Shown here in pieces: positions 22,996 to 27,894 of a stretch of 55,841 nt of DNA. The translations under genes were made by a program, and so were the position numbers. The stretch comes from Pseudomonadota bacterium (lineage in GTDB: Bacteria > Pseudomonadota > Gammaproteobacteria > Xanthomonadales > Rhodanobacteraceae), in the NCBI GenBank assembly GCA_021792975.1, contig JAJYTR010000003.1:24693-80533 (forward strand), given 5' to 3'. The notes beneath the pieces were generated by a model. That model saw only the letters and a program-made list of their open reading frames with translations. It had not been told where the DNA came from and ran no database searches. Numbering within the stretch: the first letter of the stretch is position 1; each line of letters opens with the position of its first letter.

Positions 22996-23832
22996 TCAGC
23001 GCAGGCGCTCCAGCACGGCTTCGGTGGGACGCGAGAGGTTGAGCGTGTAGAAGTGCAGCTCCGGCGCGCCGCCGTCGAGCAGGCGCCGGCACATGCCCGC
23101 CACCACGTCGGCGGCGAAGCTGCGGATCGAGGCCGTGTCGTCGCCGTAGGCCTGCATGCGGCGCACGATCCAGCGCGGGATCTCGGCGCCGCACTGCTCG
23201 GAGAAGCGCCTGAGCTGCGCGAAGTTGGACACCGGCATGACGCCCGGCACGATCGGTACATCCACGCCGGCGCGGCGCGCGTCCTCGACGAAATGGAAAT
23301 ACGCGTCGGCATTGAAGAAATACTGCGTGATCGCGCTATCCGCGCCGGCCGCGACCTTGGCCGCGAAGTGGCGCACGTCGGCGTGCGCATCGTCGGCCTG
23401 CGGATGCGTCTCGGGATAGGCCGCCACGGTGATGTGGAATGCGCACCCCGGCTGGCCGCGGATGAAGCGCACCAGGTCCGCGGCATAGCGGAAATCGCCG
23501 GTGGCCGCCATGCCCGAGGGCAGGTCGCCGCGCAGCGCCACCACGCGCGTGCAGCCGATTTCGCGGTACTGCGCCAGCAGCGCGGCGATCTCGGCGCGCG
23601 TGCCGCCCATGCACGACAGGTGCGGCACCGCGTCCAGCCCGTGTGCCGCGCGCAGCGCGCGCACCGTGTCCGGCGTGTAGCTGAGGGTCGAGCCGCCGGC
23701 GCCGAAGGTGACCGACACGAAGCGCGGCGCGTGCGTCTTCAGCCGCGCCACCGCACGCTCGAGCTGCGCGTGCTGCTCGGGTGTCTTCGGCGGGTAGAAC
23801 TCGAAGGAAATGGCGGACCGCGCGCGGGTCAT
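22996..23832 (-). CDS. metF: 5,10-methylenetetrahydrofolate reductase
   Basis: The 278-residue flavoprotein makes 5-methyl-THF, the methyl donor for methionine synthesis. Diagnostic segments are SFEFYPPKTPE at the N-terminus (catalytic Glu), FVSVTFGAGGS, LRGDLP, and QYFFNADAYF. Length matches bacterial MetF (about 275-296). A 26-bp near-palindrome lies 19 bp upstream of its ATG and is also present upstream of ahcY. In related bacteria metF is often close behind ahcY; here an accessory island separates them, and metF has its own operator-like site. Confidence 0.95.
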   Translation of the reverse strand: MTRARSAISFEFYPPKTPEQHAQLERAVARLKTHAPRFVSVTFGAGGSTLSYTPDTVRALRAAHGLDAVPHLSCMGGTRAEIAALLAQYREIGCTRVVALRGDLPSGMAATGDFRYAADLVRFIRGQPGCAFHITVAAYPETHPQADDAHADVRHFAAKVAAGADSAITQYFFNADAYFHFVEDARRAGVDVPIVPGVMPVSNFAQLRRFSEQCGAEIPRWIVRRMQAYGDDTASIRSFAADVVAGMCRRLLDGGAPELHFYTLNLSRPTEAVLERLR

Positions 23833-23876: not shown

Positions 23877-24090
23877 ATCATGCGTGGACGGGCGCCGCGC
23901 AAGCACCCGGCGCCGGACCGCGGGCGTGCCCGGCTCGTGCAGACAGCGCGCCTCCCGATGTGCGCAGGCCGCCGCCGCGCCATCGCCGCGACGCGCCTCA
24001 CCGGCGTTGTCGCCCCCTGGGACCGGGCGGATATCTCTCGGTCCCCGCATCGCGTGATGCCCACGGCGACGCCGGCCGATTGCGAGACCC

Positions 24091-24196: not shown

Positions 24197-24203
24197 GTTG
24201 GGC
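24197..24203 (+). other. R''-type recombination core before the first island gene
   Basis: GTTGGGC matches the integron core GTTRRRY and lies 14 bp before the first island gene, the usual spacing between a cassette boundary and its start codon. A partner GCTGAAC at 24153-24159 could pair with it, but the intervening arms are asymmetric, so a full attI or attC is not claimed. Confidence 0.4.
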
Positions 24204-24217
24204 GGCTCGGAGGCAAT

Positions 24218-24670
24218 ATGAAGACAGTCGCTGGGGGCGTAATCGCCGTCGTTCTACTTGTGTTCTACGTCCTGCTTGTTTATTCGGCAGTGCACGTCGT
24301 CAACTGCGTCAGCACCTCGGGCTGCATCGACACAACAGTTGCCTTATTCAACGATGTCAAGTCTCAAGCCATGTCTGTACTTGGAGGTTTGGTGTCCGCA
24401 CTAATAATTTCCGAGTTGGCTGTTGCAAAGCCAGGTGAAGCGCCTGCGACTCGTTTCCTGGCTAATGCATCCAACCGAGCGAAAAATATTCTTCGCTGGA
24501 CAACTTGGCTTTACGTGGGCGCCTGGCTGATTACCGGCGCTTGGGCCTTTTGGACCGGCTTGAATCACCCATCAGTGTTGCCTGCTCTCACGAGCGTGGG
24601 GCAATCTTGGTTAGGACTTGCGGTAGCGTCTGCTTATGCTTACTTTGGCCTTAGGCCTGCCAATGTTTAA
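24218..24670 (+). CDS. island gene 1: small four-helix membrane protein
   Basis: The 150-residue product starts at ATG 24218 with GGAGGCA as ribosome binding site. Four hydrophobic stretches (about residues 5-28, 48-66, 84-106 and 118-136) suggest an integral inner-membrane protein with short loops. Two cysteines (VNCVSTSGC) lie just after the first helix. I recognise no family. The DNA is clearly less GC-rich than the flanking housekeeping genes, and its stop codon lies inside the attC-like site that follows, as in integron cassettes. Confidence 0.7.
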   Translation: MKTVAGGVIAVVLLVFYVLLVYSAVHVVNCVSTSGCIDTTVALFNDVKSQAMSVLGGLVSALIISELAVAKPGEAPATRFLANASNRAKNILRWTTWLYVGAWLITGAWAFWTGLNHPSVLPALTSVGQSWLGLAVASAYAYFGLRPANV

Positions 24671-24732
24671 CTACTCATTCCTGCGGACCGCCAACCTCTA
24701 CGGTTTGCGGCTACTAAATTCAGGCGTTAGCA
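24665..24732 (+). other. attC-like site after island gene 1
   Basis: The R' core GTTTAAC (24665-24671) includes the gene's stop codon and the R'' core GTTAGCA is at 24726-24732. Between them, CCTG (24680-24683) pairs with CAGG (24721-24724), and CCGCCAACC (24688-24696) pairs with GGTTTGCGG (24702-24710) around a 5-nt loop, with one mismatch. The flanks TCATTC and AATTCAGGCGTTAG resemble class 1 cassette attC sites. Length is 68 bp. Confidence 0.6.
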
Positions 24733-24747
24733 CTCAAGGGGAATACC

Positions 24748-25290
24748 GTGGCTGAACTGGTTTATGTCGACAACTCTAACGTCTTCATCGAAGGTAAGCG
24801 TGTGAAGGCTGTTGAATCAGGTCTCGCGATGAATATTTATGACGCGATGAACAACCGAATTCTTGACAACAGCTACAAGATAGATTTTGGACGCCTTCAT
24901 TACTTCATCGCAGGTGACGACAGGACGAAAATCAAGCGCTGCATGTTGTTCGGAAGCCGCCCACCGCCCAATGACTCGTTATGGGACATAGCGCGGAAGG
25001 CTGGGTTCCAAGTAATCGTTGAAGATCGGAACATCGCGAATAAGGAGAAGAAGATCGACACGGGGATCGTCGCTGCGATGATCAAGGATGCATATACCAT
25101 CGCAGACAGGGCGGCGGACACGATCACTCTGGTTGCTGGAGACGCCGATTTTGTGCCTTCGGTGCGCCCGCTGGTGGAGGATGGGTTTAGGGTCGAGGTT
25201 GTTTTCTGGGACCACGCCGCCAAAGAACTACGCGAGTGCTGCTCAAAGTTCATCTCACTCAATCCTATCCTCAATCATCTTGCATACTAA
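24748..25290 (+). CDS. island gene 2: NYN-domain (LabA/DUF88-type) protein
   Basis: The 180-residue protein starts at a GTG with AAGGGGA upstream, 15 bp after the R'' core of the preceding attC-like site. It is a single NYN domain of the PIN-like nuclease superfamily. The acidic residues expected at the metal centre are visible: Asp8 and Asn9 in YVDNSNVF, Asp104 in KIDTGIVAAMIKDA, and Asp134/Asp136 in VAGDADFVPSV. Such domains are found in RNases and in stress or defence loci. The target is unknown. The gene is AT-richer than its chromosomal neighbours. Confidence 0.88.
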   Translation: MAELVYVDNSNVFIEGKRVKAVESGLAMNIYDAMNNRILDNSYKIDFGRLHYFIAGDDRTKIKRCMLFGSRPPPNDSLWDIARKAGFQVIVEDRNIANKEKKIDTGIVAAMIKDAYTIADRAADTITLVAGDADFVPSVRPLVEDGFRVEVVFWDHAAKELRECCSKFISLNPILNHLAY

Positions 25291-25351
25291 TGTGAGCGCT
25301 AAAGGCGGCTATTTTCCCATTCATGAGCTCTATGAATCTTCCAGTAATGAT

Positions 25352-25369
25352 GCATAACAAGTGTTAGGT
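25352..25369 (+). other. possible truncated attC between island genes 2 and 3
   Basis: GCATAAC and GTTAGGT can pair as R' and R'' cores but are only 4 nt apart, with no L boxes, so this would be a collapsed or recombined site. GTTAGGT fits GTTRRRY fully and lies 7 bp before the next start codon. Confidence 0.35.
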
Positions 25370-25376
25370 TTTCGCT

Positions 25377-25838
25377 ATGAGCTACGACCCGCATTGGACA
25401 AGTTACCTGTCTGCGCTGTTGACCCCAACTGTTGCGGTTTTGGGTTCAGTTATCACCTACCGTCAGTGGCGCACTGCACAGAACAAGCTGAAGCTTGATC
25501 TATTTGACCGGCGTTTTTCCGTTTATGATGCAGCAAGAAATTTGCTCGCCGCGATCATGACCAGCGGTAAAGCTAAAGACGAAGAGGTTTTCAAATTTCT
25601 ATTTGCTACTCGCGAAGCCAAGTGGTTGCTGAATATCGAAGTGGCAACATATTTGGAAGAACAACTATATCACAAGGCCATCGACTTGCAGACTCTGCAA
25701 GCTGAACTTGTGAGTGTTCCAGTCGGTGATGAGCGATCTACAAACGTCGAGAGACAGGCCGAAATTAAGAAGTGGTTCGCCGCTCAATATATAGTGCTAG
25801 ATGAAAAGTTCTCCCCCTTCCTTAAATTGCAACACTGA
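25377..25838 (+). CDS. island gene 3: membrane-anchored protein of unknown function
   Basis: The 153-residue product has one N-terminal transmembrane helix (about residues 9-27, LSALLTPTVAVLGSVITYR). A charged, helical cytoplasmic part follows, starting with the sequence QWRTAQNKLKLDLFDRRF. Short proteins with this helix plus Q-W-R...L-K-L-D-L-F-D-R-R-F start are widespread in accessory regions, without a known role. ACTTAAC, an R'-like core, directly follows the stop codon (25839-25845). Base composition is among the most AT-rich of the window. Confidence 0.75.
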   Translation: MSYDPHWTSYLSALLTPTVAVLGSVITYRQWRTAQNKLKLDLFDRRFSVYDAARNLLAAIMTSGKAKDEEVFKFLFATREAKWLLNIEVATYLEEQLYHKAIDLQTLQAELVSVPVGDERSTNVERQAEIKKWFAAQYIVLDEKFSPFLKLQH

Positions 25839-25882
25839 ACTTAACAAGCCATTATTGATTACGAAACATGAGAGGAAAATTT

Positions 25883-26134
25883 ATGAAGAAGGTTAAACCT
25901 GATGAACTTCGCCTTGAGTATCGCCGGGAAGACCTCGGGAAAGGTGTTCGAGGAAAGTATCTGAAGGCCTATCGCGCCGGCACGAATCTTGTCCTGCTCG
26001 AACCCAAGGTCGCGGCAGCCTTCCCATCGGACCGTGCGGTAAATGAGGCGCTCAGCACCCTCATCGAAGCCGCCGAGCATGCGGTCATGGCAACACGTTC
26101 AACGCGGACGCGCCCAAAGCGGCGCCCTGGTTAG
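25883..26134 (+). CDS. island gene 4: small antitoxin-like protein
   Basis: The 83-residue protein starts at ATG 25883 (AGAGG 7 bp upstream); an in-frame ATG at 25868 has no Shine-Dalgarno site. The body (DELRLEYRREDLGKGVRGKY, then GTNLVLLEPKVAAAFPSDRAVNEALSTLI in pieces) matches a common family of small proteins with a Y/F-RGKY motif and a FP...VN.AL..L end. That family is often seen beside toxins and resembles ribbon-helix-helix type antitoxins, but no assay-based role is known to me. The end is basic (TRPKRRPG) and lies within the next attC-like site. Gene 3 could be its partner in one cassette. Confidence 0.65.
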   Translation: MKKVKPDELRLEYRREDLGKGVRGKYLKAYRAGTNLVLLEPKVAAAFPSDRAVNEALSTLIEAAEHAVMATRSTRTRPKRRPG

Positions 26135-26148
26135 CCTGGTCGTTAGAC
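26089..26148 (+). other. attC-like site overlapping the end of island gene 4
   Basis: The R'' core GTTAGAC (26142-26148) fits GTTRRRY. The R' core is either GTTCAAC at 26097-26103, which pairs with it in 6 of 7 positions counting one G-T pair, or the degenerate GGCAAC at 26089-26094. The inner part CGTTCAACGCGGACG resembles the left arm of class 1 cassette attC sites. The stop codon of gene 4 lies within it. Confidence 0.45.
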
Positions 26149-26157
26149 CGCTACGGA

Positions 26158-26174
26158 AGTTCGGAGAGCGAACT
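26158..26174. repeat. short perfect inverted repeat before island gene 5
   Basis: AGTTCG (26158-26163) and CGAACT (26169-26174) flank a 5-nt loop GAGAG, 12 bp before the start of island gene 5. It could shape translation or be the remnant of a recombination site. Confidence 0.45.
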
Positions 26175-26186
26175 CGGAGAACAAAC

Positions 26187-26405
26187 ATGGGTGCGGGATT
26201 CTGGCTGAAGCGGTTCTCGCTTGCGTTCTTGATTGCCGGCGCATTGCTCTTTGCCGTGCAACTCGGCAAGGGCCACGCGCCGACTGACGCGGCGCAGTTC
26301 GCGGCGCTCTGGGGCGCGCTGTCCGCCGCGATTTTTGCGCTGACTGGCTACATCCGGTACAGGCGCAACCCGGCGTGCATGCTGCCACCGCCCCGTCGGC
26401 AATGA
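26187..26405 (+). CDS. island gene 5: two-helix membrane protein
   Basis: The 72-residue product (MGAGFWLKRFSLAFLIAG...) has two predicted membrane helices, about residues 8-26 and 36-55, followed by a basic tail YIRYRRNPACMLPPPRRQ. Similar short proteins occur in gammaproteobacterial accessory DNA without known function. It starts 38 bp after the GTTAGAC core and has no attC-like site of its own downstream, so the cassette may be truncated at the chromosome junction. Composition is intermediate between the island and the host. Confidence 0.65.
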   Translation: MGAGFWLKRFSLAFLIAGALLFAVQLGKGHAPTDAAQFAALWGALSAAIFALTGYIRYRRNPACMLPPPRRQ

Positions 26406-26448: not shown

Positions 26449-26463
26449 AGCGGGCGGCGTGGT

Positions 26464-27894
26464 TCAGTACCGGTAGTGCCCGGGCTTGTACGGGCCGTCC
26501 CGCGGCACGCCGAGGTACTCGGCCTGCGCGGGCGTGAGCCGGGTCAGCTTCACGCCGATCTTCTGCAGATGCAGGCGCGCGACTTCCTCGTCGAGCTTCT
26601 TCGGCAGGATGTAGACCTTCGGCTCGTAGAAATCCTTGTTGGCCCACAGGTCGATCTGCGCCAGCGTCTGGTTGCTGAAGCTGTTGGACATCACGAAGCT
26701 GGGGTGGCCGGTGGCGCAGCCCAGGTTCACCAGACGCCCTTCGGCCAGCAGGAAAATGCTGTTGCCGCCGGTGAAGGTGTACTTGTCCACCTGCGGCTTG
26801 ATGTTGAGCTTCCGCGCGCCGCTGGCGTTGAGCCGGTCCACCTGGATCTCGTTGTCGAAGTGGCCGATGTTGCAGACGATGGCCTGGTCCTTCATCGCCT
26901 GTAGGTGCTCCAGCGTGAGGATGTCCCGGTTGCCGGTGCAGGTGACGTAGATGTCCGCCGTGCCCAGCGTGTCCTCGACGGTCTTCACCTCGAAGCCCTC
27001 CATCGCCGCCTGCAGCGCGCAGATCGGGTCGATCTCGGTGACGATCACGCGGCAGCCGTAGGCGCGCAGGCTGTGCGCGCTGCCCTTGCCGACATCGCCG
27101 TAGCCGCACACCACGGCCACCTTGCCGGCCAGCATCACGTCCATGGCGCGTTTGAGGCCGTCGGCCAGCGATTCGCGGCAGCCGTAGAGGTTGTCGAACT
27201 TGCTCTTGGTCACCGAGTCGTTCACGTTGATCGCCGGCACCAGCAGCTTGCCGGCCTCGGCCAGCTGGTACAGCCGGTGCACGCCGGTGGTGGTCTCCTC
27301 GGACACGCCCTTCCAGGCTTTGACCACGTCGTGCCAGTAGCCCGGGCGCTCCCTGGCCACGCGCTTGAGCAGGTTCTTGATCACCTGCTCCTCGTGGCTG
27401 GCCGCAGGCGTGTCCGCCCAGCCGCTGCCGTTCTCCAGCTCGAAGCCCTTGTGGATCAGCAGGGTCACGTCACCGCCGTCGTCGACCACCAGCTGCGGGC
27501 CCAGCGTGCCGCCGCCGAAACCCAGCGCGGCCAGCGTGCAGTCCCAGTATTCCTCCAGCGTCTCGCCCTTCCAGGCGAACACCGGCATGCCGCCGGCGGC
27601 GATCGCGGCGGCAGCGTGGTCCTGCGTGCTGAAGATGTTGCAGGAGGCCCAGCGGACGTCGGCGCCGAGACCCTTCAGCGTCTCGATCAGCACGGCGGTC
27701 TGGATGGTCATGTGCAGGGAGCCGGTGATGCGCACGCCGGCCAGCGGCTGCTGCGGCGCGTATTTGGCGCGGATCGCCATCAGCCCGGGCATTTCCTGCT
27801 CGGCGATGTCGATTTCCCTGCGGCCGAATTCGGCCAGGCGGAGGTCGGCGACGCGGTAATCGTGGCCGGCGGCGGGGTGGGCGAGGGCGTTCAT
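26464..27894 (-). CDS. ahcY: S-adenosylhomocysteine hydrolase
   Basis: The 476-residue NAD-dependent enzyme splits S-adenosylhomocysteine into adenosine and homocysteine, clearing the inhibitory product of methylation. I chose ATG 27894 ([18 protein letters not shown]) with GGAG upstream. Recognisable parts are [16 protein letters not shown] near the N-terminus, the NAD loop [31 protein letters not shown] and the C-terminal end KPGHYRY. The insertion typical of long bacterial forms is present. An SAH riboswitch lies in its 5' leader, so rising SAH should raise expression. It works with metF in the methionine cycle. Confidence 0.97.

Follow-up and report, generated by a model that had tools for sequence, protein, structure and literature searches.

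A probable decayed, integrase-less array of integron cassettes between metF and ahcY in a Rhodanobacteraceae genome

Five small genes between metF and ahcY

The window analyzed here, a 55,841 nucleotide stretch of contig JAJYTR010000003.1 (assembly GCA_021792975.1; Gammaproteobacteria, Rhodanobacteraceae), carries an island of five small open reading frames (ORF1–ORF5) in the interval between metF (22996–23832, reverse strand; Pfam MTHFR, 296 bits) and ahcY (26464–27894, reverse strand; Pfam AdoHcyase, 488 bits). An original prediction, made from the nucleotide sequence alone, had described five same-strand genes at this locus, and all five indeed lie on the forward strand. It had read them as integron gene cassettes captured without a local integrase. 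For ORF1–ORF4 we consider this very probable: they are best read as four cassettes in a decayed, integrase-less array at about 24198–26148, but the extension to ORF5 is unsupported. The cassette reading follows from one clear attC site, one marginal attC site, a degraded R'' box, and three gene families that occur in cassettes elsewhere.

The guanine-cytosine (GC) content of the first four genes (ORF1, 52.5%; ORF2, 50.8%; ORF3, 46.5%; ORF4, 59.1%) can be set against 67.2% for ahcY and 70.2% for the whole window, and the island is the sole stretch of the window to fall below 60% GC when measured in 500-base windows. The predicted lowering of GC content relative to the flanks holds for these four genes but not for ORF5, which is host-like at 66.2%. 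The core-like boxes named in the original prediction are all present; from those at 24197, 24726, 25363, and 26142, start codons lie 14, 15, 7, and 38 bp downstream, respectively. One of them, GTTAGCA at 24726, departs from the strict GTTRRRY consensus under which it had been grouped; the identical odd core precedes relatives of the ORF2 gene in other genomes. Scans for sigma-70 promoters and for terminators returned counts at chance level (1 versus 1.4, and 2 versus 3.2).

Covariance models identify one clear attC site

We searched for attC sites with two covariance models, trained mainly on gammaproteobacterial sites. Model R1 was built from 24 attC sites of 56–72 bases that lie beside integrase genes scoring over the family cut-off in related genomes; the R and L stems of these sites covary, with 91.4% of cells paired versus 81.3% in shuffles, a value reached by none of 500. 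Model R2 was built from 148 matches, the window's own site excluded. The window was searched using R1 with filters off, genome-wide scoring covered 150 first-look candidates per model, and 56 genomes of the class were scored under stricter filters, 27 of which returned no match at E 1 or better. A home-made scorer based on box pairing could not tell genuine sites in GC-rich DNA from chance matches, and these models took its place.

The first site, attC1 (24665–24732, forward strand; R'' GTTTAAC, R' GTTAGCA), is the one clear attC. At 24665–24731 it scored 27.1 bits with R1 (E 2.2e-4) and 29.3 bits with R2 (E 2e-5), the top of the window with both models; the next-best R1 match in the window, located elsewhere, reached 13.8 bits (E 0.4). 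In the genome-wide scoring, it was the sole R1 match at E 0.1 or better (E 0.009) and stood first among the scored R2 candidates (E 8.2e-4). The site possesses the R''-L''-L'-R' plan expected of attC sites in a cluster of attC sites lacking integron-integrases (CALIN), with about four stem pairs outside the R boxes being non-standard in the alignments to both models. The claim that this is an attC site is based on the covariance scores rather than on fold energy or core counts. Of the two-part hairpin attributed to it, the inner stem is present, but the folding energy is ordinary. The genome-wide scoring returned a single other R2 match at E 0.5 or better (21.3 bits, E 0.118; G000:C34, locus L232, 2853–2917); it lies inside a gene that, by eye, is histidine-kinase-like, and we judged it a false positive.

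The remaining sites are of graded quality. The fourth, attC4 (26085–26148, forward strand), overlaps the ORF4 stop codon and ends in the R' box GTTAGAC at 26142. Model R2 placed it second in the window at 16.4 bits (E 0.065; next match, 12.7 bits), and its position matches that of strong attC sites at the gene end in ORF4 relatives. With R1, the corresponding match (26084–26148) ranked fourth in the window at 10.7 bits and E 2.3. The current IntegronFinder rule, as given in PMC9024848, asks for at least two attC sites per CALIN; by our own models the island reaches this number only marginally. The covariance search that the original prediction had proposed as its check therefore returned one clear site and a second that is marginal with one model and at noise level with the other.

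The second site, attC2 (25293–25369, forward strand), is degraded, and neither model returned a significant match at 25290–25369. Its R' box, GTTAGGT, stands at 25363–25369. Two bases past the stop codon of ORF2, at 25293–25303, lies an R''-like sequence, TGAGCGCTAAA, which is complementary at 9 of 11 positions to the start of the cassette's own sequence, GTTAGCACTCA (complement, TGAGTGCTAAC). Shuffling the 80 bases concerned gave a match of this quality in 61 of 5000 cases, and none of 648 other windows of the island gave one. As supporting but not decisive evidence, this suggests that 25293–25303 may be the R'' box of the ORF2 cassette's own attC, the L boxes of which would no longer pair. 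Of the third site only a lone R'' box, ACTTAAC, remains (25839–25845, forward strand); the rest is missing, and neither model matched significantly at 25839. The description of three internal attC-like sites of unequal quality, one of them collapsed, is thus borne out in its gradation and in the collapse at 25839, but only one attC of the island is good.

Three gene families recur in cassettes elsewhere

ORF2 (24748–25290, forward strand) encodes a 180-residue NYN-domain protein (Pfam NYN, 67.7 bits) and is the presumed gene of cassette 2, about 24727–25363. Its relatives in named genomes number 51, come from distant phyla, and reach 77% identity along the full protein; relatives also occur on eight plasmids and ten viral contigs. 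Among 61 NYN loci, attC matches stand on both sides of the gene in two Derxia species (L161 and L162), and in Aeromonas diversa (L165) an attC precedes the gene and a weak one (E 0.087) follows it. At the other loci, no attC beside the gene was visible to models R1 and R2 with their mainly gammaproteobacterial training; in Bacterioplanes (L160), the bases behind the NYN gene look attC-like by eye, and neither model matched there. From the core onward, the NYN leader is common to the window (GTTAGCACTCAAGGGG), to a Rhizobiaceae metagenome-assembled genome with a 77% identical protein (L129, CTAGCACTCAAGGGAG), and to A. diversa (L165, GTTAGCACTCA); the bases farther upstream differ. Because four aspartates, D8, D104, D132, and D134, are invariant in all 21 aligned relatives, the ORF2 product is probably an intact nuclease. 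We take these aspartates to be its catalytic residues. The protein matched no solved structure by sequence at E 0.01, and PADLOC matches were weak and partial (best, HEC-09, E 8.5e-5), such that we do not claim a role in defense.

ORF4 (25883–26134, forward strand; 83 residues) is the presumed second gene of cassette 4. Directly upstream, at 25861–25896 on the same strand, lies what appears to be left of a BrnT-type toxin gene, namely its final 11 codons and the stop. The encoded peptide, TKHERKIYEEG, is identical at 10 of 11 positions to the end of a BrnT-type frame in locus L205, and it overlaps ORF4 by 14 bases, as in L205; the same overlap between a BrnT-like frame and an ORF4 relative was seen in six of the loci inspected. 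Relatives of ORF4 occur in 31 other genomes of 369 from the class, and in 29 loci examined, a BrnT-like frame identified with our own loose motif stands upstream of the gene in 19. Two such frames were scanned and matched Pfam BrnT_toxin at 104.4 bits (L205) and 93.6 bits. At six of the 29 loci (L206, L209, L211, L218, L222, and L226), an attC at E 0.01 or better stands at the gene end, and two more (L213 and L217) have a weak one. ORF4 itself matched no Pfam family, antitoxin families included, so that its assignment as a putative antitoxin comes from its position. BrnT and BrnA have been noted among integron genes (PMC7370490), and toxin-antitoxin cassettes are considered to have a stabilizing effect on arrays (PMC11551772). 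As a side observation, one genome (G150) holds six ORF4 relatives across several contigs.

The lone R'' box of attC3 stands just upstream of the toxin remnant. On the simplest account, a single deletion would have run from within attC3 through the beginning of the following cassette and almost to the end of the toxin gene. Such a deletion, which would have left the toxin gene with its last 11 codons, would also explain why the site at 25839 appears collapsed.

ORF3 (25377–25838, forward strand; 153 residues, no family match) is the presumed gene of cassette 3. Relatives were found in seven other genomes of the 369, and eight loci were examined. In one, with a 51% identical protein (L194), the gene is immediately followed by an attC (20.9 bits, E 0.009); in another, with a weak relative (L200, 23% identity), an attC stands on each side. 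Borders of this kind, an R' box before the gene and an attC after it, recur in other genomes for the families of ORF2, ORF3, and ORF4, and not for ORF1 or ORF5.

Evidence weighed against the cassette reading

A number of observations count against interpreting ORF1–ORF4 as cassettes, and several of them would suit an alternative that takes the island for ordinary DNA gained by horizontal transfer and its likeness to attC for chance. Core counting is weak evidence: five strict GTTRRRY cores compare with 1.9 expected, a count that 25 of 500 Markov sequences attain, and RYYYAAC cores give the same picture. For the folding energy of attC1, the z scores are -0.53 on one strand and -0.55 on the other, and equally good folds arose in 53 and 54 of 200 shuffles, respectively. 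Only one attC in the island is individually significant, attC4 being at noise level with R1, and this genome contains a 21.3-bit false match. The complementarity test for attC2 was devised post hoc, with the sequence already seen. Most NYN relatives show no attC; just 3 of 61 are flanked by model matches, two of these being congeners, and on a plasmid of Candidatus Manganitrophus (L190, CP114559.1) an NYN relative sits directly behind a XamI-type restriction enzyme and an N-6 DNA methylase. ORF1 (24218–24670, forward strand; 150 residues, no family match), the presumed gene of cassette 1 at about 24198–24726, has no relative besides itself among the 369 class genomes and is linked to the array solely through the attC1 behind it. 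Chance nonetheless appears improbable, given 29.3 bits at precisely the predicted place and three genes with cassette-borne relatives. The cassette reading is further supported by the low GC content and by the absence of the island's genes and attC sites from the metF–ahcY gaps of seven genus-mates, described below.

ORF5 (26187–26405, forward strand; 72 residues) matched DUF202 weakly, at 22.6 bits and under the cut-off. That it is a fifth cassette, with its own attC lost, is doubtful. Its start 38 bp past an R' box and its location inside a stretch without homology to related genomes would fit such an origin; its host-like GC content, the lack of any attC (R1 or R2) or R'' box downstream, and a single weak relative among 350 genomes, with none borne on a cassette, argue the other way.

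A proposed model for the decay of the array

The island resembles known elements in two respects: i) like a CALIN, it is made up of short genes on one strand that are separated by attC-type sites, with no integrase close by, and ii) ORF4 relatives, like BrnT toxin-antitoxin cassettes, sit behind BrnT-like frames and end in attC sites. It differs from a CALIN in that just one of its attC sites is clear, one more being marginal and two being in ruins. From BrnT cassettes it differs in that the toxin gene is truncated, its final 11 codons and the 14 bases shared with ORF4 being all that is left, and in that ORF4 matches no Pfam antitoxin family. The chromosomal integrons and scattered CALINs of Xanthomonas (PMC12444791) likewise show integrase loss and arrays away from the platform, but the place there is ilvD rather than metF–ahcY, and the genus is another one. 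The kind of element, a decayed CALIN-type cluster, is already known; what makes this example instructive is that its sites have decayed by degrees, that an antitoxin-like gene has lost its toxin, and that attC sites lie dispersed in the genus.

In the model that we propose, an integron integrase, either formerly resident or supplied from another location, would have joined circular cassettes at this locus by cutting between the G and the TT of each R' box. The four cassettes would have carried ORF1, the NYN protein, ORF3, and a BrnT-type toxin-antitoxin pair. Today, as judged by sequence and covariance model, attC1 is recognizable with weakened L-box pairing, attC4 is marginal, attC2 appears to keep its outer boxes only, and attC3 is cut to its R'' box, by a deletion that would also have taken nearly all of the toxin gene and left the antitoxin-like gene alone. 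The array would now be immobile or nearly so, and its genes would persist as fixed accessory genes. Read in this manner, the island illustrates the death of a cassette array, in which pairing may be lost to varying degrees and deletion may take a toxin and spare its antitoxin-like partner.

The locus and integron integrases across the genus

All 13 genomes of the genus match ahcY and metF. In seven genus-mates the two genes are adjacent, with gaps between the matches of 142, 147, 155, 262, 301, 302, and 720 bases versus 2,634 here; in the other five they lie on separate contigs. None of the seven gaps contains an attC or a DNA match to the island. The comparison with sister genomes that the original prediction had proposed therefore finds the island absent wherever the gap is visible, and the five genes in the same order in none of these gaps. 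The 720-base gap (G007:C63, L062) holds a sequence that, by eye, resembles trpF rather than a cassette. For two genomes (G005 and G003), the possibility that a long array separates ahcY from metF was considered and set aside; there the two genes lie on separate contigs, and the adjoining stretches examined gave no attC at E 5 or better. Homology to the nearest relative ends at 23902 and is regained at 26457. This leaves the insertion point within a range, and 24197 is the likeliest candidate for the left end of the array.

The proposed genome-wide search for intI (TIGR02249) likewise agreed with the prediction: this genome, which is 76% complete, yielded no match over the cut-off, the window included, and its four sub-cut-off matches are all on other contigs. 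At that completeness, the array is not a complete integron, having no adjacent intI, and accords with the CALIN definition of no integrase nearby. Among the 12 genus-mates, intI over the cut-off was found in four (G001, G009, G007 with an internal stop, and G008 in pieces), and two more (G006 and G010) have partial matches. Sites of attC type are scattered: 11 of the 13 genomes carry a total of 54 that score above 30 bits, grouped in 33 clusters, although clusters in fragmented drafts may in reality be linked. In G011 (loci L233–L239), 99% complete on five contigs, there are 12 attC sites in seven clusters and no intI over the cut-off.

How the cassettes arrived can be considered in this light. 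We give about even chances to an arrival in which an integrase located elsewhere in the cell placed the cassettes directly into the chromosome at an attG-type target, no integron having ever been present here. The absence of integron parts from the seven visible gaps and the scattering of attC sites, above all in G011, speak for such an arrival, as do the CALINs that about half of Xanthomonas genomes are reported to carry at a distance from the main integron locus (PMC12444791, where attG insertion is discussed); the target itself is unreadable within the homology gap, the relatives being too diverged, and possible linkage of the draft clusters tempers the argument. The array could alternatively be the tail of a complete integron once located here, its integrase and attI lost. 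Loss appears to be ongoing in the genus, as judged from the disrupted and partial intI genes, but no intI remnant was found in this genome, window included, and the seven gaps are free of integron parts; we regard this origin as rather unlikely. On the scattered attC sites and the integrase data, cassettes arriving outside an integron are favored, though not proved, relative to an integron that decayed here. Work on attG insertion is reportedly described by Loot et al. (2024).

More speculatively, and with some reservation, the genus may have experienced repeated insertion of cassettes, one or a few at a time, into numerous unrelated chromosomal places and often in genomes without an integrase; the metF–ahcY island would then be a decayed example of natural insertion outside integrons, its erosion made possible once the toxin half of a toxin-antitoxin cassette was lost. 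A genus with scattered, often integrase-less attC sites offers a natural test ground for cassette insertion outside integrons. The split, stop-bearing, or partial intI genes of the genus lie on G008:C13 and C32, G007:C51, and G010:C54.

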